Shown: in pieces, positions 16,345-27,500 of the stretch
Numbering within the stretch: position 1 is the first letter of the stretch
Layout of the letters: each line of letters starts with the position of its first letter
Assembly: GCF_021631985.1 (NCBI RefSeq)
Contig: NZ_CP070225.1
Location: forward strand, 1,984,001-2,048,000
Length of the DNA stretch: 64,000 bases
Reading direction: 5' to 3'
From: Sandaracinus amylolyticus
GTDB lineage: Bacteria > Myxococcota_A > Polyangia > Polyangiales > Sandaracinaceae
Notes under the pieces: generated by a model
What the model saw: the letters and a program-made list of their open reading frames with translations, nothing else
What the model was told of the DNA's origin: nothing
Databases searched by the model: none
Position numbers and translations under genes: made by a program

Positions 16345-16390
16345 ACGAATTGACCATTTCGGGCCTCTGGGGACCAAAACTCGCGTGTTC

Positions 16391-16437
16391 TGGCCATTTC
16401 GCCCGAGATCGCGGTCGCAGGTCGGGCGAAACGGCCA
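16391..16437. repeat. 16-bp inverted repeat (15/16 paired)
   Basis: TGGCCATTTCGCCCGA (16391-16406) and TCGGGCGAAACGGCCA (16422-16437) pair in 15 of 16 positions around a 15-nt loop. In a minus-strand RNA the one mismatch would be a G-U wobble, so a minus-strand transcript could form a continuous stem. Confidence 0.65.
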
Positions 16438-16579
16438 AGGGACGCGACGCCACCCCGAGACCGGTCTCTCGCGCCCGATCCGGCCCAGCTCCCGTTCCCG
16501 CGCCGACCCCGACCCGGACCCCGACCCGGTTTCCATTGGGCGTGCACTCCGCCGCGGGCGCGGACAGTCTGGCCGGACC

Positions 16580-18181
16580 ATGACGCGTGCCGCCGAGCTC
16601 GAGAGCGCTTCGATCTTCCTCTCCGGGCCGATGGGCAGCGGGAAGACGACGGTCGGGCGCGCGCTCGCGGAGCGGCTCGGGGCGCCGTTCGTCGATCTCG
16701 ACGCGCGCATCGAGGCCGAGCAGGGCGCGTCGGTGCGCGCGATCTTCCGCGACCGCGGCGAGCCCGTGTTCCGCGCCATCGAGCGCGAGGCCGCGGCCCG
16801 CGTCGCGAGCGAGCCGGGCACGCGCGTCGTCGCGCTCGGCGGCGGCACCGTGACCGACACCGCGACCCGCCGGATGCTGCTCGCGCGCGGCACGCTCGTG
16901 ACCCTGCACGCGCCGCCCGAGGAGCTCGCGCGTCGAGTCGCGGGTGGCGACGATCGGCCGCTGCTCGCGAGCGCGAGCGACAGCACGCGCGTCCTCGCGA
17001 CGATCCTCGAGGAGCGCGCCGCCGCCTACGCCGAGTGCCACGCGCGCATCGACACCCGGGGTCGCGACGCGAGCGCGATCGCCGACGACATCGTGCGCGT
17101 CGCGCGGGAGCGTCCGGTCGCGGTCGCGCTCGGCGAGCGCAGCTACCGCGTCGAGATCGGATCGGGCGTCGCGTCGCGCCTGGGCGCACGGCTGCGCGAG
17201 GCCGGGGTGTCGGGCACGACCGTCGTGGTCGGCGACGAGAACGTCGAGGCGCCGTGGGCCGCGAACGCGCGCGGCTACGTGGAGGGCGCGGGGCTGCGCG
17301 CGGCGCCGGTGACGCTCGCGCCGGGCGAGCAGCACAAGACGATCGGGTCGGTCGAGCGGATCTGGGACGCGGCGCTCGAGGCGGGGATCGATCGCCACGG
17401 CGCGGTGGTCGCGGTCGGCGGCGGCGTGGTGGGCGACCTCGCGGCGTTCGCGGCATCGACGATCCTGCGCGGCATCGTGCTCGCGCAGATCCCGACCTCG
17501 CTGCTCGCGATGGTCGACAGCTCGGTCGGCGGCAAGACCGGGTTCGATCGCGCCCAGGGCAAGAACCTGATCGGCTCGTTCCACCAGCCGCGCACCGTGC
17601 TCTGCGACGTGGACGCGCTCTCGACGCTCGATCGCGCCGAGCGCATCGCCGGGCTCGCCGAGGTCGTGAAGTCCGCGTGGATCGACTCGGAGGACGCGGT
17701 CGCGGCGCTCGAGCGCGACGCCGACGCGCTGCTCGCGGGCGACGCCGAGGCGACGGTGCGCGCGGTGCGGATGTCGGTCGCGCTGAAGGCGCGCATCGTC
17801 GCGGAGGACGAGCACGAGCGCGGGCCGCGCGCGCTCCTGAACCTCGGGCACACGCTGGGGCACGCCATCGAGGCCGCGAGCGGGTACACGATGCGCCACG
17901 GCGAGGCGGTCGCGCGCGGGATGGTCGCGGCGGTGCGGGTGGCGCGCACGCTGGGCGATGCGCGCCCCGACGACGAGCGGCGGATGATCGCGCTGCTGAC
18001 GCGCCTCGGCCTGCCGACCGATCCCGAGCGCTACTTGGATGAGACCGCGCTCGCGTTCGTGGGCGCGGACAAGAAGCGCAAGGGCAGTGACGTGCGCTTC
18101 GTGTCGCCCGGCGCGGCCGGGAACGTCGGGCTGCGGATGGTCGCGATCGCGGAGCTGAAGCGCATCGCCACCGGCGGCTGA
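16580..18181 (+). CDS. aroKB: Bifunctional shikimate kinase / 3-dehydroquinate synthase
   Basis: A 533-residue fusion of two shikimate-pathway enzymes. Residues about 11-175 are shikimate kinase (P-loop GPMGSGKTT at 16-24; DLDARIE; RDRGEPVFRAIE; LGGGTV). Residues about 182-533 are dehydroquinate synthase: NAD-binding GGGVVGDLAAFAAS at about 280-293, PTSLLAMVDSSVGGKTG, and Zn-site residues Glu in GLAEVVK, His424/His428 in LGHTLGHAIE and His440. The enzymes catalyse steps 5 (AroK) and 2 (AroB) of chorismate synthesis, so the fusion joins non-consecutive steps. The ATG at 16580 gives the expected kinase N-terminus; a longer in-frame extension runs through the palindromic gap and is rejected. Two copies of the stop-proximal repeat follow directly. 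Confidence 0.95.
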   Translation: MTRAAELESASIFLSGPMGSGKTTVGRALAERLGAPFVDLDARIEAEQGASVRAIFRDRGEPVFRAIEREAAARVASEPGTRVVALGGGTVTDTATRRMLLARGTLVTLHAPPEELARRVAGGDDRPLLASASDSTRVLATILEERAAAYAECHARIDTRGRDASAIADDIVRVARERPVAVALGERSYRVEIGSGVASRLGARLREAGVSGTTVVVGDENVEAPWAANARGYVEGAGLRAAPVTLAPGEQHKTIGSVERIWDAALEAGIDRHGAVVAVGGGVVGDLAAFAASTILRGIVLAQIPTSLLAMVDSSVGGKTGFDRAQGKNLIGSFHQPRTVLCDVDALSTLDRAERIAGLAEVVKSAWIDSEDAVAALERDADALLAGDAEATVRAVRMSVALKARIVAEDEHERGPRALLNLGHTLGHAIEAASGYTMRHGEAVARGMVAAVRVARTLGDARPDDERRMIALLTRLGLPTDPERYLDETALAFVGADKKRKGSDVRFVSPGAAGNVGLRMVAIAELKRIATGG

Positions 18182-18190
18182 CTCCTTGCC

Positions 18191-18257
18191 GGAGTGCTCG
18201 TCCCGGACGGGAGCGCGCGACGCGCGCGGACGGTAGGGACCGGCGGGCGAGCCGATC
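18191..18257 (+). repeat. Stop-proximal dispersed repeat, copy A
   Basis: It begins 10 bp after the aroKB stop and reads in its direction: GGAGTGCTCGTCCCG, then GACGGGAGCGCGCGAC, GGACGGTAGGGACC and GGCGGGCGAGCCGATC. Copies B, C and D share these blocks in the same order. Confidence 0.85.
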
Positions 18258-18262
18258 GCCTG

Positions 18263-18339
18263 CGGGAGTGCTCGTCCCGCAGGTCCCGGACGGGAGCGCG
18301 CGACGCGCGCGGACGGTAGGGACGGCGGGCGAGCCGATC
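18263..18339 (+). repeat. Stop-proximal dispersed repeat, copy B
   Basis: A second tandem copy, longer than A by a CAGGTCCCG insertion after the first block. CTGCGGGA and TCCCGCAG form an 8-bp hairpin with a 7-nt loop (GTGCTCG); GCGCGC-GAC-GCGCGC forms another. Confidence 0.85.
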
Positions 18340-18363
18340 TAGTGAGCCGCCTTTGACTGCAAT

Positions 18364-18393
18364 TTGGCTGCGCCACGGCGGCGGGCGTACGCT
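18364..18393 (+). promoter_or_regulatory. Putative sigma-70 promoter, leaderless type
   Basis: TTGGCT (18364-18369), an 18-nt spacer and TACGCT (18388-18393), followed by 7 nt and then the ATG at 18401. No Shine-Dalgarno can fit. Confidence 0.45.
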
Positions 18394-18400
18394 GGATCCC

Positions 18401-19087
18401 ATGCACGCCAGGGTTGGGTCGTTCCTCGCGCTTCTGCTCGCGCTCGCCGGCTGCGCTCCGTCGAACCCGGGCATCGAGATCGAGGGGGTGCTCGGTTTCG
18501 GCGAGATGTGCTCGGTCGACCCGGGCTCGGAGCCGACGTTCGTCCTGCTCCCGACGCTCGACACCTCGCCGGTCTTCGGCCGCGTGCGGACGCGGGGCAT
18601 CCGCTACACCGCGAGCTTCCAGGTCGTGAACCGGTTCCTGAACCTCGGGCGCAGCGACTACCCGATCATGGCGGACCCGAACTCGTTCTTCGTCGAGGAG
18701 GCCGAGGTCGAGCTGCGCGGGATCGACGGCTCGCCGCTCGACCTCGGTGATCTGCCGTCGCGGTTCCGGGTGCCGGCGAGCGGCTTCATCCCGTCGGCGG
18801 GAGACGAGACGGAATTCGGGCGCGGCGCGTCGGTCGTCGACGTGATCCCCCCGGTCTACGGTGACGCGCTGGTGGGCCGCACCGGGATGATCGTCGCGGC
18901 GATCACGCTGCGCGGCACGACGTCGGGCGACTCGACGCAGACGACCGGCGAGTTCCAGATGCCGATCGAGCTGTGCGACGGATGCCTGTTCGTCTGCCAG
19001 GTGACCGACGAAGGCATGGCGGTCGACGCGCTCTCGTGCCTGGTCGGGCAGGACGCGGTGTCCGCCGCGGTCGAAGCCTGCCCCTGA
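18401..19087 (+). CDS. Lipoprotein, unknown function
   Basis: A 228-residue protein. The ATG at 18401 is chosen because it begins a textbook lipoprotein signal (HARVGSFLALLLALAGC, Cys18), and a promoter-like hexamer lies 7 nt upstream; an in-frame start at 18353 would bury this signal. The mature part is acidic, with four to six further Cys near the C-terminus (CDGCLFVCQV). No domain is recognised. The gene is flanked on both sides by copies of the same dispersed repeat (B before, C after), so gene and repeats may have moved or been reshuffled together; this is only an inference. Confidence 0.75.
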   Translation: MHARVGSFLALLLALAGCAPSNPGIEIEGVLGFGEMCSVDPGSEPTFVLLPTLDTSPVFGRVRTRGIRYTASFQVVNRFLNLGRSDYPIMADPNSFFVEEAEVELRGIDGSPLDLGDLPSRFRVPASGFIPSAGDETEFGRGASVVDVIPPVYGDALVGRTGMIVAAITLRGTTSGDSTQTTGEFQMPIELCDGCLFVCQVTDEGMAVDALSCLVGQDAVSAAVEACP

Positions 19088-19122
19088 CCTCGGCGCGCTT
19101 CGCGCGCAACGACGGATCAAAA

Positions 19123-19190
19123 CTCGGCTCGCCCGCCGGTCCCTACCGTCCGCGCGCTCCCGTCCGGTCCCCGCGGGACGAGCACTCCCG
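19123..19190 (-). repeat. Stop-proximal dispersed repeat, copy C
   Basis: On the minus strand it starts 6 bp after the stop codon (19197-19199) of the large TPR gene and runs in that gene's direction: GGGAGTGCTCGTCCCG, GGACGGGAGCGCGCGGAC, GGTAGGGACCGGCGGGCGAG. Confidence 0.85.
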
Positions 19191-19196
19191 TAGGGA

Positions 19197-22100
19197 CTAC
19201 CGCAGCGCGCCGACGAACGCGTCGCCGAACGCGAAGCGCAGCAGATCGGCGAGCGCGCCCGACTCCGCCACCGCGTCCGCGAGCGAGCTCGGGGGGCGGA
19301 TGCCGCGCTCCTGGGCCTCGAGCGCGCGCAGCGCCACGATCGACGCGCGCACGTCGCCCGACGCGACGAGCCCGGCGCGCGCGGCGCCGCCGAGCACCGA
19401 CGCGCGCTGGGTGTCCCAGTCGAGCGTGCTCTCCGACTCGAGCAGCAGCTCGCGCACGTCGCGCTGGTTGCGGGTCGGGATGGTGCGCCAGAGCTGCGAC
19501 GCGAGCGCGGCCGCCTCGCGCGCGACCTGCGCGCCCTCGGCGGGACCGAACGCTGCGCGCAGCGCCGCGTAGAGCGTCTGCCCCTCGTCGCCGCCGAGCG
19601 TCGCGAGCAGCACGTGCTCGGGCCGCGCGAGCTCGATGGCGCGCCCGAGCAGGAAGCGCAGCGAGCGATCGTCGCCCGGCGCGTCGGCGCCGACGAGGAC
19701 CGCCGGCGGATGGGTGCGGATCGGCGTGACCCCCGTGCCCGCGGCGCGCGTCGCGAAGAGCGTCACGTCGTCGCCCTCGGGCAGCGCGTCGAGCGTGGCG
19801 GCGAGCGCGCGCCCGATGCCCGAGCCGGTGTGCGGCCCGACGCGATCGGTGCCGAGGATGCCGAGCTGCTGGAGCGTCACCCGGAAGAGCGGCAGCGCCG
19901 ACTCCCACACCAGCGCGAGCAGCCGGCGCGCGCTCTCGTGCGCGGGGTTGCGCAGCAGCGTGCCGCGGGCGTCGGCGAGCGAGCGTGCGTCGAGCCCGAG
20001 CACCGGCGGCGCGCTGCGTCGCGGCTCGAAGGCGGCGAGCACCGCGCTCGCGACGTACGCCGCGCCGCGCGCGCCGGCCCGCGTGGCGATCTCGCCGAGC
20101 AGCTCGATCGCGGCGACGCGCCCGGGATCGATCACCAGCGCGGACCGCAGGAGCGCGGCCGCCTCGAGCAGATCGTCGTCGCTCGCGGCGAGCGCGCGGG
20201 CGCGGGCCTCGAGCTCGTCGAGCGCGTCGTCGTCGAGCGGCTCGTCCTCCGACACCGGCATCGCGATGGGGGAGGGACCGCCGGGCGCGGGCGGGAGCGA
20301 AGGCGGCGCGGGGAGCCAGAGGTCCATGCGCGACGGGCGGTCGCCGGGCTCGGCGGGCTCTTCCTCGTCGGGCTCGGGGAGCGCGACCGGCGGGCGCGAG
20401 GGACGCAGCGAGGGCGCGGCGTGGCCGTTCGCGGTGGAGACCGGGCGCGTCGAGGGAGGGCGGGGCGCGGTCGCGATCGGCGCCGGCGCGTACGAGGGCG
20501 CGGGCGCGTAGCTCGGGACCGGCGCAGGCAGCTCCGAGGGCGCGGGATGCGCGATCACCGAGACCGCCGACGCCAGCGAGCCCGAGCCCGCGGGCACGGC
20601 GACGCCGAGCTCCGCCGCGACGCGCTTGGCGTCGTCGCTGGTGGGATCGGTCTCGAGCGCCTCGCGCACCTTCGCGCGCGCTTCCTCGCGGCGCGCGGGA
20701 TCGCGGCGCAGCCAGCTCGCGAGCTCCGCGAGGATGCCCGCGATCTTCGAGGGCTCCGGCTCCTCGGCGCGCAGCGCGGCGAGCGCCTCGTTCGCGAGCT
20801 GCTCGCCGCGGGCGAGATCGCCGCGCGCGACCGCGTGCAGGCGCGCGGCCTTCATCGTGAGGCGGGCCTTCTCGTCGGCCATCCACGCCTCGTCGGCCCG
20901 GCGTGCGAGCTCGCCGAAGAGGTCGCCGAACGCGCGCTCGCCGAGCTCGTGCGAGGCCTCGCCCATCCGCGCGCCGAGCCGTCCGAGCTCCTCCTCGAGC
21001 TCGCTGAGGCCGGTCTCCTTCCACACCGGGAAGAGCACCTCCCACGCGCGCTCGGGGCGGCCGATCTCCTGGTCGAGCAGGGTCGCGGCGCGGCGCAGCA
21101 TCGCGAAGCGCACCATCGGATGCGGCGCGTTCTCGGCGAGCAGGAGCAGGCCGCGCGCGAGGGCGTCGAGATCGCCGGTGGTGCGCGCGAGGCGCTCGAT
21201 CGCGGTGAGGATCACGCCGCTGCTCGCGGCGTGACGCGCGGCCTCGAGATACGCGTCGAGCGCGTCGCGCTCCGCGCCCGCACGCTCGAGCCAGCGCGCG
21301 CGACGGTAGAGCAGGGCGCGGCGACCGCTCGCCCCCATCGCGTGCGCGATCAGCTCCTCGTAGGTGCGCTTGGCGTCCTCGACGTCCTGGCGCTCGAGGG
21401 CGAGCTGCTCGAACGCGACGAGGAGCGGGCCGTGGCCCGGCACCGCGCGGAGGCCCTCGTGGATGATCTGGATCGCGAGCGCGAGGTTCCCCGCGTGGCG
21501 CGCGGCGCGCGCGGCGGCGCGCTCCCAGAGCCGTCCCGCCCACGCGCCCTCGGCGCGGCGCGCTTCGTCGCGCATCACCGCGACCGCGGCCTCGGGGCAG
21601 TCGATCGCGACCAGCACGCCCGCGGTCCTCGCGACGCGCAAGAGCGAGGGCTCGTCGGCGACCGGCGGGAGCTCCTCGAGCGCGGCGCGCGCGAACGACT
21701 CGGCGGCGGAGGGATCGGCGAGCACCTGCATGCTCGCGGCGGCGAGCCCGAGGCGGCCCTCGAAGCGCTCGTCGTCGCTCGCGCCCTCGGCCACGCGCAG
21801 CGCGAGCGCGGCCATCAGCCGGTCGTGCTCGCCGGTGCTCGCGTAGATCTCGGCGAGGCGGGTGATCGACGTCTCGTCGCGCGGCACGCGCGCCAGGACC
21901 CGCAGCAGCGCGCGCGCTTCGCCCGCGACGTCGCCGCCGCGCGCGTGCTGGGCCGCGATCTCGCGGAGCGTCGCGATCGCGTCGTCCTCGCTCGACGCGG
22001 CGAGACGGCGCTCGAGCGCGGCGATCACGAAGTGCGGCGAGCCCGCGCGCTGGGCGAGCGCGCCCGCGATCTCGCGCAGCGGGACGCCGGCCTCGCCGAA

Positions 22101-25100
22101 GCGATCGGCGCTGCTCACCGCGAGCGCGCCGGCGCGCTCGATCGCGCCCCGCGCATCGAGCGCGGAGAGCGCGTCGGCGATCGGGCCGATGCTCGCGGGC
22201 TCGCACCGCGGATCGCGGGTGAGCGCCTCGACGGCGCGCACCGCGAGCTCGATCTCGCCCTGCTCGAGCGCGACCTGCAGCGCGTCGCGCCACGGCTCCG
22301 CCTGGTACGGCGCGAGCCGCGCCCAGCGCTCGATCGCGTCGAGGCGATCGTGCTCGCGCTCGGCGGCGCGCACGTCGGCCGCGAGCAGCGGCGGCATGTC
22401 GCCCACGAGCGCGCGGGCCCGGGCGATCGCCGCGGGCGGCGCGCTGCCACGATCGCTCGCGAGCCGCCGCGTGAGGATCAGCGCGGCCTCGGCGGCCTCG
22501 GGATCGGCGAGCAGCGCGTCGATCGCGGCGACCCGTGCGCCCTCGCGATCGCCCGCGGACTCGCAGCGCGCCGCGAGGCCGGTGAGCGCCCGCGCGCGGT
22601 CGGGGGGAGCGAGCGCGAGGCGCGACTCGCGGGCGAGCGCATCGCGCACCAGCGCGTCGTCGCCGAGGCGCGACGCGGCACGGCGCAGCCGCACGATCGC
22701 CTCGCGGTGGCCGGGCACTTCGTTCAGCACGCGCAGGCACGCGCGCGCGACGGCGCGATGATCGCCGCGCACCGCCTCGAGCCCGGCGATGCGCAGCAGG
22801 CGCCGCACGCGCTCGATCCGCCGCCCCTCGTTCTCGACGCGCCGCTCGAGCACCTGGATGCGGCCCGCGATGTCGCCGCGCAGCGCGAGGATGCGCTCGA
22901 GCAGGTCGCCCGCGCCGTCGTCCCAGCCCTCGTCGATCATCCCGGCGAGCAGCGCGATCGCGCGCTCGCGACGCTCGGGATCCTGGGCGAGGATCGCGGC
23001 GAGGCCGCGGGTCGCGTCGCGTCGCTCCGAGGGCTCGCCCTGGCGCGAGAGGCGGTCGAGCTCCGCCGCGCGCTGCATCGCGGGGCGCATCGTGCTCTCG
23101 AAGCGCGCGCGCGCCTTCGACATCGGCTCGCCGCCGAGCGCGGCGGCGACCGAGCGTGCCCACGCCGCGCGCAGCGGCTCGCGGGTCACGTCTTCCGCGG
23201 TCCGCGCGAGCTCCTCGAGCGCGGCGGCGCGCGCGGCGTCCGAGGTCCAGCCCGAGGCGCGGATCGCCCGCTCGAGCGCGTCGGCGAGCAGCATCGGATC
23301 GGCGGCGGCCTCGGCCTGCTGCTGCACCGCGGCGCGCGCGCGCTCGTCGGTGGGCTCGACCTCGAGGCAGCGGATGCGCAGCTCGAGCTCCCAGCTGCCG
23401 TCCCCGGCGATCTCGAGGCGCGCGTCGGCGGCGCGGGTGAGCCAGAAGAGCCGCGCCTCGGGCGGGCACACCGTCGCGAGCTCCTCGAGCACCACCGCAC
23501 GCTCGACCAGCGCGCCCGCGGCCTCGAGATCGATGTCGAGCGGCTCGTAGAGGACCTCGAGCTCGGGCTCGTCGTCGAGCGCGCGGAGGAGCATCTCGGC
23601 GGCGAGCAGCGGGCGCTCGTCCATCTCGGCGCGCTCGGCGGCCTCGAGGCGGAGGCGCCGACGCAGGTCGGGCTCGCTCGCGCGACGCGCCGCGTCCGCG
23701 CGCAGCGCGATCGCCGCGGGCCCGCGCCCTGCCGCGGCCTGCCACGCCGCCATCGCGTCGGCGGCGTTCTCGTGGCCGGGCGCGATCGACCACGCCGAGC
23801 CGACGAGGTACGCGCCGCCCTCGGGATCGCTCTCGCCGAGCTGGACCGCGGCGCCGAGGAGCTCGTCCGCGGCGTCGGTGGCGCGTCCCTGCGCGAGCAG
23901 GATCGAGGCGGTGATCGCGCGCGCGTCCGCCGCGCGTGCGCCGGTCGCCGCGGCGCGCAGCGCCGAGAGCGCGATCTGGGTGCGCCCGATGCGACGCGCG
24001 AGCAGCGCGTAGGCGATCAGCACGTCGTCGCGGCGCGGTCCGTCACCGGCGGCGCCGACCGCGGCGCGGCCGTACGCGAGCGCGAGCTCGGTGTGGGCGC
24101 ACGCGGCGCACGCGTCGGCGGCGGCGAGCAGCGTCTCGGGATCCTCGGCGAGCGCGGCGGCGGCCTCGCGCAGGGCGCGCTCGCGCTCTTCGACGCTCGC
24201 GTAGCGCTCGAGCCAGGTCTCGGCCGCGGCGCGCCACGCGGCGGCACGCTCGACGGCGGGCGCGCCCGACTCCTCGAGCACCGCGATCTCGCGCTCGAGC
24301 GGATCGAGCGCGTCCTCGAGCGCGCGCGTCGCGGGCGGGAGCTCGGGCAGCGTGAGATCGAACGTCTCGATCTGGGCGAACGCCTGGGCGGCGCCGGGCG
24401 AGAGCTGCACCGCCGCGGGCCGGGGCGGCGGGATCGAGGCGGCGCGCGCCGGCGGGATCGAGATGCTGCCCGGGCGGATCGACGCGTCGCTCGCCGGCGC
24501 GGGCGCGGCGAGCGAGGGGAGCCGGCGCGCGGGCGCGGGCGCGCTCGCGCCGGGCGTGACCACCCGCGCGAGCCCGGCGCGGACCAGCGCCGCGATGCGT
24601 GACGCGGCGGCGGGCGCGCTCATCAGGAACGCGGCGATGCGCGGCTCCTTCGCGCTCTTCTCGGCGGCCTCGAGCCCCGCCCAGCGACGAGCGCGCGCGG
24701 TGTGCGGGCCCTCGAGCCACTCGAGGCGATGGGTCGCGCGGGCGCCGACCTGCTCGGCGTCGCCCTCGGCGGCGCGGCGCTCGAGCGCGTCGAGCACCAG
24801 CGGCACGAGCGAAGCCTCGGCGGAGACGTGGGGCGGCGGCGCCTCGGGGCGGAGCGCCGGGACCGCGCGGCCTTCGCTCTCCGCCTTCCCCATTCCGCGC
24901 ACGAGCCGGTCGAGCCAGAGCGCGCGCAGCGTCTCGGCGAGCGCATCGTGCGAGAGCAGCGTCGAGCCCTCGGGCAGGCGATCGGGATCGGACGAGAGCC
25001 GCCCGAGCGCGGCGCGCTCTTCCTCGCGGATGCGCCCCGTCTTCGCGAGGAACTCGTGGAGCGAGGGATCGCCGGGCGCACGTCGCACGTCGACCACGCG

Positions 25101-25220
25101 GCCGCGCCTCAGCACCACCGTCCGCTCTCCGACCTCGACCGCGCCCTCGGCGCCCCGCTCGTCGAGCTCGAGAAGGAAGCGCGCGATGGGGCTCGGCGAT
25201 GGCGCCCAGACCTCCGTCAC
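19197..25220 (-). CDS. Very large TPR-repeat protein with N-terminal PATAN-like domain
   Basis: A 2007-residue protein with no signal peptide. The GTG at 25220 is chosen because TAGAGT lies exactly 7 nt upstream and the frame before it runs through repeat copy D. The N-terminus (about 5-110) resembles a PATAN/DUF4388 domain: LLELDERGAEGAVEVGERTV, RRGRVVDVRRA, LHEFLAKTGRIREEERAAL. Most of the remainder is Ala/Leu/Arg-rich tandem TPR-like helical pairs, interrupted by a Pro-rich linker at about 1565-1650. The last 350 residues form a distinct domain (LQQLGILGTDRVGPHTGSG, TLFATRAAGTGVTPIRT) that I do not recognise. It is probably a cytoplasmic scaffold. It lies downstream of sppA on the same strand, separated by repeat D. 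Confidence 0.85.
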   Translation of the reverse strand: MTEVWAPSPSPIARFLLELDERGAEGAVEVGERTVVLRRGRVVDVRRAPGDPSLHEFLAKTGRIREEERAALGRLSSDPDRLPEGSTLLSHDALAETLRALWLDRLVRGMGKAESEGRAVPALRPEAPPPHVSAEASLVPLVLDALERRAAEGDAEQVGARATHRLEWLEGPHTARARRWAGLEAAEKSAKEPRIAAFLMSAPAAASRIAALVRAGLARVVTPGASAPAPARRLPSLAAPAPASDASIRPGSISIPPARAASIPPPRPAAVQLSPGAAQAFAQIETFDLTLPELPPATRALEDALDPLEREIAVLEESGAPAVERAAAWRAAAETWLERYASVEERERALREAAAALAEDPETLLAAADACAACAHTELALAYGRAAVGAAGDGPRRDDVLIAYALLARRIGRTQIALSALRAAATGARAADARAITASILLAQGRATDAADELLGAAVQLGESDPEGGAYLVGSAWSIAPGHENAADAMAAWQAAAGRGPAAIALRADAARRASEPDLRRRLRLEAAERAEMDERPLLAAEMLLRALDDEPELEVLYEPLDIDLEAAGALVERAVVLEELATVCPPEARLFWLTRAADARLEIAGDGSWELELRIRCLEVEPTDERARAAVQQQAEAAADPMLLADALERAIRASGWTSDAARAAALEELARTAEDVTREPLRAAWARSVAAALGGEPMSKARARFESTMRPAMQRAAELDRLSRQGEPSERRDATRGLAAILAQDPERRERAIALLAGMIDEGWDDGAGDLLERILALRGDIAGRIQVLERRVENEGRRIERVRRLLRIAGLEAVRGDHRAVARACLRVLNEVPGHREAIVRLRRAASRLGDDALVRDALARESRLALAPPDRARALTGLAARCESAGDREGARVAAIDALLADPEAAEAALILTRRLASDRGSAPPAAIARARALVGDMPPLLAADVRAAEREHDRLDAIERWARLAPYQAEPWRDALQVALEQGEIELAVRAVEALTRDPRCEPASIGPIADALSALDARGAIERAGALAVSSADRFGEAGVPLREIAGALAQRAGSPHFVIAALERRLAASSEDDAIATLREIAAQHARGGDVAGEARALLRVLARVPRDETSITRLAEIYASTGEHDRLMAALALRVAEGASDDERFEGRLGLAAASMQVLADPSAAESFARAALEELPPVADEPSLLRVARTAGVLVAIDCPEAAVAVMRDEARRAEGAWAGRLWERAAARAARHAGNLALAIQIIHEGLRAVPGHGPLLVAFEQLALERQDVEDAKRTYEELIAHAMGASGRRALLYRRARWLERAGAERDALDAYLEAARHAASSGVILTAIERLARTTGDLDALARGLLLLAENAPHPMVRFAMLRRAATLLDQEIGRPERAWEVLFPVWKETGLSELEEELGRLGARMGEASHELGERAFGDLFGELARRADEAWMADEKARLTMKAARLHAVARGDLARGEQLANEALAALRAEEPEPSKIAGILAELASWLRRDPARREEARAKVREALETDPTSDDAKRVAAELGVAVPAGSGSLASAVSVIAHPAPSELPAPVPSYAPAPSYAPAPIATAPRPPSTRPVSTANGHAAPSLRPSRPPVALPEPDEEEPAEPGDRPSRMDLWLPAPPSLPPAPGGPSPIAMPVSEDEPLDDDALDELEARARALAASDDDLLEAAALLRSALVIDPGRVAAIELLGEIATRAGARGAAYVASAVLAAFEPRRSAPPVLGLDARSLADARGTLLRNPAHESARRLLALVWESALPLFRVTLQQLGILGTDRVGPHTGSGIGRALAATLDALPEGDDVTLFATRAAGTGVTPIRTHPPAVLVGADAPGDDRSLRFLLGRAIELARPEHVLLATLGGDEGQTLYAALRAAFGPAEGAQVAREAAALASQLWRTIPTRNQRDVRELLLESESTLDWDTQRASVLGGAARAGLVASGDVRASIVALRALEAQERGIRPPSSLADAVAESGALADLLRFAFGDAFVGALR

Positions 25221-25227
25221 GCGCGCG

Positions 25228-25233
25228 ACTCTA
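25228..25233 (-). promoter_or_regulatory. Putative -10 hexamer (TAGAGT)
   Basis: TAGAGT on the minus strand, exactly 7 nt before the GTG at 25220. There is no clear -35 and no ribosome-binding site. Confidence 0.4.
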
Positions 25234-25290
25234 TCACTGTGCGCCAGAGGGGAAGGGGCTCTCTTCGCGGGCTCGAGCACTCTCGAAAGA

Positions 25291-25368
25291 TCGGCTCGCC
25301 CGCAGGTCCCTACCGTCCGCGCGCGTCGCGCGCTCCCGTCCGGGACCTGCGGGACGAGCACTCCCGCA
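25291..25368 (-). repeat. Stop-proximal dispersed repeat, copy D
   Basis: On the minus strand it begins about 5 bp after the sppA stop (25374-25376) and reads with transcription. It is the best-structured copy: GCGGGA-GTGCTCG-TCCCGC can form a hairpin, or CCCGCAGGTCCC can instead pair over 12 bp with GGGACCTGCGGG further on. The two folds are mutually exclusive. Confidence 0.85.
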
Positions 25369-25373
25369 AGCGA

Positions 25374-27122
25374 TCAGCGCACGTCGAGGCCGATCGGGAG
25401 CGCGAGCACGACCGGCTGGTCCGCGCGCAGGAAGCGCGCCCAGCGCAGCGCGTCGGCCGCCGGGCCCAGCTCGGCGCGCACCAGCGCGGCCGCGGCGTCC
25501 TCCGCGGGGTCGCCGCCCTGCATCGTGTGCATCAGCGTCTCGATCATCGTGCGGCGCGCCGGCCACTCGACGACCTGGGTGTCCTCGGGGAGGCTCGCCT
25601 GCTCGCGCGCCATCGCGATCGCGGTGCCGAGCCCACCCAGTCGATCGACCAGGCCGCGCTCCAGGCCCTGACGGCCGCTCCAGATGCGGCCCTCCGCCGA
25701 CGCGAGCACGCGCTCCTCGGGCATCTCGCGGCCCTCCGACACGCGACGCACGAAGCGGCGGTACGTGCTCTCCATGATCCGGCGCAGCACCGCGCGCTCC
25801 TCGTCGGTGAACGGCGCCGACGGCGAGGACCAGCCCGCGTGCGCGCCGCGCGTGATCGTCTCGGCGTGGACCCCGAGGCGCGACATCAGCGCCGACGCGT
25901 CGACCTTGCCGCCCACCACGCCGATCGAGCCGACGATGCTCGCGGGGTGCGCGACGATGTCGTGGCCCGCCGACGCGATGTAGTAGCCGCCGCTCGCCGC
26001 CATGTCGCCGACCGACACGATCACCGGCTTGCGCCCCGCGATGCGCCGCACCGCGTGCCACATGCGATCGCTCGCGAGCGCCGAGCCCCCGGGCGAGTCG
26101 ATGCGCAGCACGACCGCCCTCACGTCCTCGTCCTCCGCGAGCTCGCGCATGCGACGCACGAAGGGGCCCGACTGGCCGGTGCCGGTGCCGCTCTCCTCGG
26201 CGTCGGTGATCTCGCCGTCGAGGTAGGCGAGCACGATGTGGGGCCCGACCGCCTCGCTCTCGGGCGGCTCGCCCGAGGTGAGCGCGCCGAGGAGATCGCC
26301 GAGCGTCACGTCCTCGGGCTCCGGCGTGAGGCGCACCCGCACGTTGCGGGTCGCGCCGCCCGCCTCGCGCGCTCGGGTGCGCGCCTCGTCGTCGTACTCG
26401 ATCGCGTCGACGAGGTGCGCCTCGAGCGCGGCCGCGCTGTCGTAGGGACCGGCGTCGAGCACCTGCTGCGCGTGCGCGGCCTCCATGCCGCGACCGCTCA
26501 CCATCGCCTGCACCAGGCCCGACTGCAGATCGTCGAGCAGCGTGCCGAGCGACTCGCGCATCTCGGGCGACATGTCCTGCCGCGTGAAGGGCTCGGCCGC
26601 GCCCTTGAACGAGCCGACCTGCAGCAGGTCCGCGCTCACGCCGATCGAGTCGAGCAGCGAGCGCGCGTAGAAGACCTGGGCGGCGACGCCGACGGTGTCG
26701 AGCATGCCCGCGGGCGTCACAGTGATGCGGTCGCACGCCGAGGCGGCGAGCAGGTAGCCGGCGTTGTCGATCGTCTCGAAGTGACAGTGGACGGGCTTGC
26801 CCGCGTCGCGCACCGCCTGCAGCGCCTCGCGCAGATCGTCGATGCGGCCCCACGCGCCGCCCATCGGGCCGAGGCGCAGGAAGAGCGAGACCACGTGCTC
26901 GTCGGTGCGCGCGTCGTCGATGCGCTGCACGACGTCGCGCAGCGCGGGCTGCGGCGCCTCGAAGAACGTGGGCTGCGCCGACTCGGAGGGCGGCGCGAGC
27001 AGGACGATCTCGCGGAGCTCGCGGCGCGCGGGGTTCGCGTCGGTCTCGGTGTCGAGGGCGGCGGGATCGCCGCCGCAGGCGAGGACGAAGAGCGCGGTGA
27101 GCGAGGAGAGAGCGCGACGCAT
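25374..27122 (-). CDS. sppA: Signal peptide peptidase SppA (lipoprotein form)
   Basis: A 582-residue long-form SppA (S49 peptidase), which degrades cleaved signal peptides at the membrane. Two S49 halves are visible. The N-terminal half carries the catalytic Lys in GSFKGAAEPFTR (Lys173), the C-terminal half carries DSPGGSALASDRM and DMAASGGYYIAS (nucleophile Ser377), followed by GSIGVVGG. The start ATG 27122 gives RRALSSLTALFVLAC, a lipobox with Cys16, instead of the transmembrane anchor of E. coli SppA, so the enzyme is probably lipid-anchored. TACGAT lies 9 nt upstream. The 43-bp tandem repeat array is immediately upstream, and repeat copy D directly follows the stop. Confidence 0.94.
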   Translation of the reverse strand: MRRALSSLTALFVLACGGDPAALDTETDANPARRELREIVLLAPPSESAQPTFFEAPQPALRDVVQRIDDARTDEHVVSLFLRLGPMGGAWGRIDDLREALQAVRDAGKPVHCHFETIDNAGYLLAASACDRITVTPAGMLDTVGVAAQVFYARSLLDSIGVSADLLQVGSFKGAAEPFTRQDMSPEMRESLGTLLDDLQSGLVQAMVSGRGMEAAHAQQVLDAGPYDSAAALEAHLVDAIEYDDEARTRAREAGGATRNVRVRLTPEPEDVTLGDLLGALTSGEPPESEAVGPHIVLAYLDGEITDAEESGTGTGQSGPFVRRMRELAEDEDVRAVVLRIDSPGGSALASDRMWHAVRRIAGRKPVIVSVGDMAASGGYYIASAGHDIVAHPASIVGSIGVVGGKVDASALMSRLGVHAETITRGAHAGWSSPSAPFTDEERAVLRRIMESTYRRFVRRVSEGREMPEERVLASAEGRIWSGRQGLERGLVDRLGGLGTAIAMAREQASLPEDTQVVEWPARRTMIETLMHTMQGGDPAEDAAAALVRAELGPAADALRWARFLRADQPVVLALPIGLDVR

Positions 27123-27500
27123 GCGGACGCGATCGTAGGGCCAGCGCTCGCGGAATGCTCGTGGGGTCGAGGATTTCGCGGGAGGCCCCCGCCGCGTGTC
27201 CGAACGCTCCGTGCGAATGCGAGGGAGGCCCCGGACGCGTGTCCGGACGCTTCCTGCGAATGCGAGGGAGGCTCCCGACACGTGTCCGGACGCTTCGTGC
27301 GAATGCGAGGGAGGCCCCGGACGTGTGTCCGGACGCTTCGTGCGAATGCGAGGGAGGCCCCGGACGCGTGTCCGGACGCTTCGTGCGAATGCGAGGAAGG
27401 CCCCGGACGCGTGTCCGGACGCTTCGTGCGAATGCGAGGGAGGCCCCGGCCGCGTGTCCGGGCGCTCCCTGCAAATCGGGGGGCCGGTCTCGCCGTGCGA
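27123..27500. other. 378-bp non-coding gap, mostly tandem repeat
   Basis: The gap between the sppA start and the stop of the zinc-ribbon/TPR gene holds the 43-bp array (27181-27481). The remaining about 60 bp next to sppA is the likely promoter zone; I see no other element. Frames stay open in several phases only because the repeat lacks stop codons. Confidence 0.7.
27181..27481. repeat. 43-bp tandem repeat, seven copies
   Basis: Copies begin at 27181, 27224, 27267, 27310, 27353, 27396 and 27439, each exactly 43 bp apart. Each contains GTGCGAATGCGAGGGAGGCC, then CCGGACGCGTGTCCGG and ACGCTTC. The inner CCGGAC-GCGT-GTCCGG is a 6-bp hairpin. The outer copies are more diverged, the four central ones nearly identical. 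43 is not a multiple of 3, so the array is not a coding repeat. Confidence 0.95.

Follow-up and report, generated by a model that had tools for sequence, protein, structure and literature searches.

The element described here is a dispersed mobile repeat, and we consider it probable that it is a non-autonomous, REP/MITE-like sequence of ~90 bp, carried by two Sandaracinus genomes, that has inserted directly behind stop codons. Its placement suggests either selective landing at stop codons or tolerance only there.

Four copies lie in the window, the whole 64-kb stretch of Sandaracinus amylolyticus DNA that was analyzed. The first-pass annotation had reported these copies with a set of shared blocks in a fixed order, and both the copies and the block order were recovered, with coordinates agreeing to within 1–3 bases (copy B at 18265, not 18263). 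Copy A (18191–18257, plus strand, starting at 18191) adjoins the TGA stop codon (18179–18181, plus strand) of gene 16385–18181, named there as a putative aroKB, from which it is separated by a conserved 9-nt spacer (CTCCTTGCC, 18182–18190, plus strand; family consensus GTCCTTGCC). Copy B (18265–18339, plus strand) follows as a tandem, head-to-tail second copy, as had been proposed. Copy C (19118–19188, minus strand, starting from 19188) lies between convergent genes, 8 nt past the TAG stop (19197–19199, minus strand) of gene 19197–25361, the putative giant TPR gene, and copy D (25284–25364, minus strand, starting from 25364) is found 9 nt from the TGA stop codon (25374–25376, minus strand) of gene 25374–27281, a putative sppA. 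The close, same-strand position of A, C and D behind stop codons was thereby reproduced, with stop-to-GGAG distances of 9, 8 and 9 nt, respectively. A repeat tool detected inverted pairing of B with D over 73 nt (97%) and of A with D over 58 nt (98%), both far beyond chance. Copy D has the full 17-bp stem; the four copies fold unequally well, because A is without 9 nt of the long stem's 5′ arm, and in C the inner hairpin is incomplete and a stem arm is altered. A search of the window against Rfam gave 0 matches at the gathering score.

The family was counted as matches to a 14-base core with ≤1 mismatch, using the reversed core as control. This yielded 266 matches in the host genome (G000; control, 14) and 111 in the sister Sandaracinus genome (G001; control, 12), which amounts to the many intergenic copies asked for by the definition of a REP; ten other relatives gave 3–17 matches each, the control level. 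Since the core is one short word, the resulting copy numbers (~250 in G000 and ~100 in G001) are estimates. The whole-genome and relatives search with a covariance model, which had been suggested as a check, returned a large family restricted to these two genomes among 116 genomes of the order. Two weak model matches in genomes of the order (L123, L124) showed no element on inspection, and a wider contig pattern search produced three single matches and one viral match, taken as chance. No published description of this repeat family was found in the open-access literature. An older, diverged subfamily with the inner hairpin CGTGCG..GCACG is shared by both genomes and frequently lies close to stop codons (L156:5548-5806, L176:14979-15225, L042:799-876).

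The element is laid out as the TGA stop, the spacer GTCCTTGCC, GGAGT, a long hairpin and CGATTTTT. Its consensus fold is a 74-nt hairpin of 25 pairs whose base lies ~14 nt past the stop codon, in which a bulged stem of 17 bp leads, by way of an internal loop with two inner pairs, to a capped hairpin of 6 bp, and inverted sequence is confined to the hairpin arms. The unpaired blocks GGAGT, CGGACGGGAG and GGACGGTAG are near invariant; the GGAGT foot occurs in nearly all copies, which were partly chosen by that word. Covariation in the stem, named in the first-pass annotation as a test of the structure, was found: in 100 copies from both genomes, a set in which relatedness can inflate such counts, 53 double-changed cells carried compensatory changes, compared with 21.6±3.4 in shuffled alignments (0/500 reaching the observed value) and ≤20 with slid partners. 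RNAalifold on the host copies alone gave no covariation because these copies are too alike, and adding the sister copies resolved this. A C-G to U-A change at columns 41/52, in 13 copies, marks an older subfamily. The two mutually exclusive folds proposed for copy D stand in part. The short GCGGGA/TCCCGC hairpin is possible in D (−12.9 kcal/mol locally), but the long stem is both the minimum-energy and the conserved fold. The short hairpin needs a G before GGAG, and its full formation is possible in only 22 of 124 copies, ruling it out as a general switch. Either RNA or single-stranded DNA could be the form in which the hairpin acts. Integron attC sites have the cores RYYYAAC and GTTRRRY, and neither an AAC nor a GTT core (R′/R″) was found in the consensus.

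Next, we consider placement. The host sample comprised 143 copies, grouped in 99 clusters, within 448 kb of surrounding sequence; it was picked by element sequence, not by neighboring genes, and its genes were called with a purpose-written simple codon-usage caller. For the sister genome, 1.33 Mb was sampled. In the host, 77 of the 99 clusters begin 8–10 nt past a same-strand stop codon (p ~1e-132), for which ~1% would be expected from a random intergenic point and strand, and 84 lie within −3 to 14 nt of a stop; in the sister genome, 26 of 37 clusters are 4–14 nt past one. Between tandem gene pairs of the host sample, 41 clusters are co-oriented and 7 reversed (p 6e-7), and convergent gene pairs hold 47 clusters, approximately half. 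Distance and orientation to stop codons, the tabulation that the first-pass annotation had called for, are therefore extremely non-random genome-wide, and the placement, orientation and structure that it had noticed in the window hold across the genome. The similarity of the bases between stop and element likewise extends to the family, in which the spacer itself is conserved (TGA-GTCCTTGCC-GGAG). Copies shortened on the left still adjoin the stop, at 0–7 nt, so it is the left boundary that is constant and not the hairpin distance.

The stops at these sites were 103 TGA, 4 TAG and 1 TAA (5/108 non-TGA), with no difference from background (p 0.2), and for every stop TGA there are 2.5 non-stop TGA words in intergenic DNA. 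Together, these two observations rule out targeting of a plain TGA word as an explanation of the placement. Some non-gene sites have a TGA at the equivalent place (e.g. 9536324) and others are without it. In the sister genome, the copies at G001:C1:8933004 and 8165701 stand directly behind T-runs, not stops, one of them after a terminator-like hairpin. Stop-adjacency was comparable for lineage-specific copies (21/27) and copies shared between the genomes (11/12), and was found for 52 of the 57 best-scoring copies; the similarity of lineage-specific and shared copies is better explained by targeting or immediate selection than by slow filtering.

The sister genome is collinear with the host in inverted order, at ~91% identity, and offers 39 alignable sites. 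In this pairwise comparison, 27 sites were scored empty; the other 12 were filled, 11 with matching orientation and 1 with the opposite one. Site 3287680, scored empty, retains a degenerate copy, and some of the alignments are ambiguous (1660117, 4844964). Such empty orthologous sites (27/39) are the mark of mobility in a MITE. Two of them are precise (4448248 and 9521125), the sister reading TGA directly followed by TCA where the host has TGA, the element and TCA, and the stop codon is at the same place in the sister's empty sites. Its absence from most sister sites, in some cases precise, means that the element is no fixed 3′ UTR module. How many copies a tandem array holds also varies between the two species. 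The sister array orthologous to copies A and B consists of 5 copies, and site alignment showed copies C and D to be missing at their orthologous positions. At 2484959 (G000:C1) and G001:C1:5056455, the two genomes carry copies in opposite orientation within one convergent intergenic region, each behind the stop of a different gene; the copy at G001:C1:5056455 is a member of an older subfamily. Direct repeats of 8–19 bp flank several insertions, being clear at ~10 sites and not visible at most stop sites, and they reach 19 bp at 2652348 (TCGACATCACTCGCTGAGC) and 15 bp at 5410379, both including the stop codon. Matches of ≥10 were rarer than 0.5% in shuffled pairings, although some of the long observed ones are tandem-copy artefacts.

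In the mobile-repeat reading that we favor, the element would have spread by insertion with its left end against the stop codon, either through insertion aimed at the stop or through retention only there, because nothing is broken at that position. After insertion, the hairpin would become part of the gene's 3′ UTR, where it may both terminate transcription weakly, in a ribosome-sensitive way, and block RNases, or else serve as a ribosome-termination structure. Several results count against this reading: neither a REP-type transposase nor an autonomous relative was found in the searches, only a minority of sites show clear direct repeats, whose length varies, stop usage equals background, and the window copies went unflagged in a terminator scan.

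The first-pass annotation had set a 3′ UTR module acting in termination, mRNA stability or RNA-protein binding against a random REP. Stop-codon placement, orientation and the covarying stem agree with the former, and the empty sister sites, varying arrays, direct repeats and restriction to two genomes identify a mobile repeat, so that the contrast is a false dichotomy. As an account of its own, a functional module would hold that there is benefit in a hairpin immediately outside the terminating ribosome (for termination, for blocking re-initiation or for stalling) and that selection fixes the 9-nt distance; we give this limited credence. In its favor, beside strict distance and orientation and a covarying stem, conservation is higher in shared copies than at neutral sites. 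At seven shared sites, element identity between the species is 94.5%, compared with 84.1% at third codon positions (p 1e-9) and 82.3% in the 3′ flank, and gene conversion to the consensus cannot account for all of this, since some shared sites keep private variants. This conservation, although drawn from few sites, is the best evidence for function, and it would be compatible with the element acting in termination, in RNA stability or in protein binding. In E. coli, ribosomes are stalled by REPs that lie no more than 15 nt from a stop codon (PMC12306157), and stable structures just past stops are selected in 128 bacteria and lower re-initiation (PMC7518266). Such ribosome-termination structures are non-homologous statistical features, whereas the element is one homologous mobile sequence. 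Terminators less than ~27 nt from the stop are repressed by ribosomes in E. coli (PMC4824070), which speaks against a module, and the hairpin ~14 nt past the stop resembles the REP-stalling and terminator-repression distances only by analogy. Against selection for distance, the left-shortened copies indicate that abutment is kept instead. Most orthologous sites are empty in the sister, some with nothing in place of the element (TGATCA), so no individual copy looks essential, and a small share of genes carry one (in the window, 3 of the 41 recognized by the simple caller). The family provides dozens of natural present/absent gene pairs with which to ask how a strong hairpin 14 nt past a stop codon affects termination, RNA decay and translation.

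A reading that we regard as unlikely ties insertion to stop codons as such, with TGA, TAG and TAA used at background rates; targeting might then be linked to RNA or the ribosome, and each jump would deliver a structured 3′ UTR. With this family, it can be asked directly if repeats target gene ends or simply persist in such places.

REP palindromes are 20–50 nt long, and their associated Y1 (TnpA-REP) transposase is known as RAYT. It is quite unlikely that the element is a classical REP moved by a RAYT that was later lost from both genomes. The high copy number, intergenic location and 3′ placement are those of many REPs, and GGAG before the hairpin resembles the GTAG-type tetranucleotide of the REP foot (PMC8266576), but the hairpin foot here is without GTAG, the 74-nt bulged hairpin exceeds the REP size range, tandem copies run head-to-tail and are not inverted pairs, and REP-type transposase (Y1_Tnp, PF01797) was not detected in either Sandaracinus genome, although it was detected in 5 control genomes. 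Membership among REPs thus fails on foot motif, size and transposase. What the element shares with REP/BIME sequences is a high-copy intergenic hairpin often close past stops, from where E. coli REPs within 15 nt can stall ribosomes (PMC12306157); its fixed abutment on the stop in most clusters is a further difference. REP-like repeats are often near gene ends, and it is the fixed 9-nt abutment, the orientation with the gene and the precise empty sites that distinguish this family.

Mycobacterial interspersed repetitive units (MIRUs) likewise occur in tandem arrays. Compared by description, they appear to be the nearest analogue for precise insertion at a translation signal, being short and thought to be mobile (PMC12548453). 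MIRUs insert at the start codons of coupled genes, with a coupled short ORF, whereas the element sits behind stops, half of the time between convergent genes. SPRITE, a terminator-like element of S. pneumoniae, and QMITE2 of Coxiella, found mainly in 3′ UTRs, are small non-autonomous repeats (PMC10969869) that resemble the element in size, in lack of autonomy and in terminator-like or 3′ UTR character. Unlike bacterial MITEs, the element has no clear terminal inverted repeats beyond its hairpin, no parent IS was encountered for it, and its direct repeats are variable.

We hold it very unlikely that an RNA-level step aims insertion at translation stops, for example by reverse transcription of hairpin RNA at mRNA 3′ regions in a bacterial SINE-like retroposition. 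Such a route would fit the variable direct repeats of 8–19 bp, the left (5′) truncations beside a more constant right end with a T-run, the orientation with the gene, and the reverse transcriptases of both genomes (5 and 14 matches); these enzymes, however, may belong to retrons or group II introns, clear direct repeats are confined to a minority of sites, and any connection between reverse transcriptase and element is hypothetical. Eight reverse transcriptase matches in the sister genome have near-equal scores and no counterpart of such score in the host (G001:C1 positions 6480714, 1463274, 9737454, 10316101, 2237593, 9086747, 8587925 and 172012), and may represent a multi-copy retroelement. 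Separately, a reverse-transcriptase gene conserved in both genomes (L115:8272-9639) lies ~8 kb or less from three element clusters, which may be coincidence.

Intrinsic terminators consist of a stem followed by a T-run within 0–2 nt. In 72% of 127 copies, the 8 nt that follow GAGCCGA include ≥4 T, with a 3-nt separation from the stem, and the terminator scan of the window flagged none of the copies. That the element is no more than an ordinary intrinsic terminator, arrived at convergently at many operon ends, is scarcely credible: the GC-rich stem with a T-rich stretch in most copies and the half of clusters between convergent genes would suit it, but the near-identical unpaired parts (GGAGT, CGGACGGGAG, GGACGGTAG) refute convergence as the sole explanation, and the tandem arrays and the 3-nt gap between stem and T-run also oppose it.

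Elsewhere in the window, and without likeness to the element by eye, a 43-bp unit forms a tandem array of 6.7 copies (92% match) at 27180–27466, at the upstream end of the sppA-like gene.
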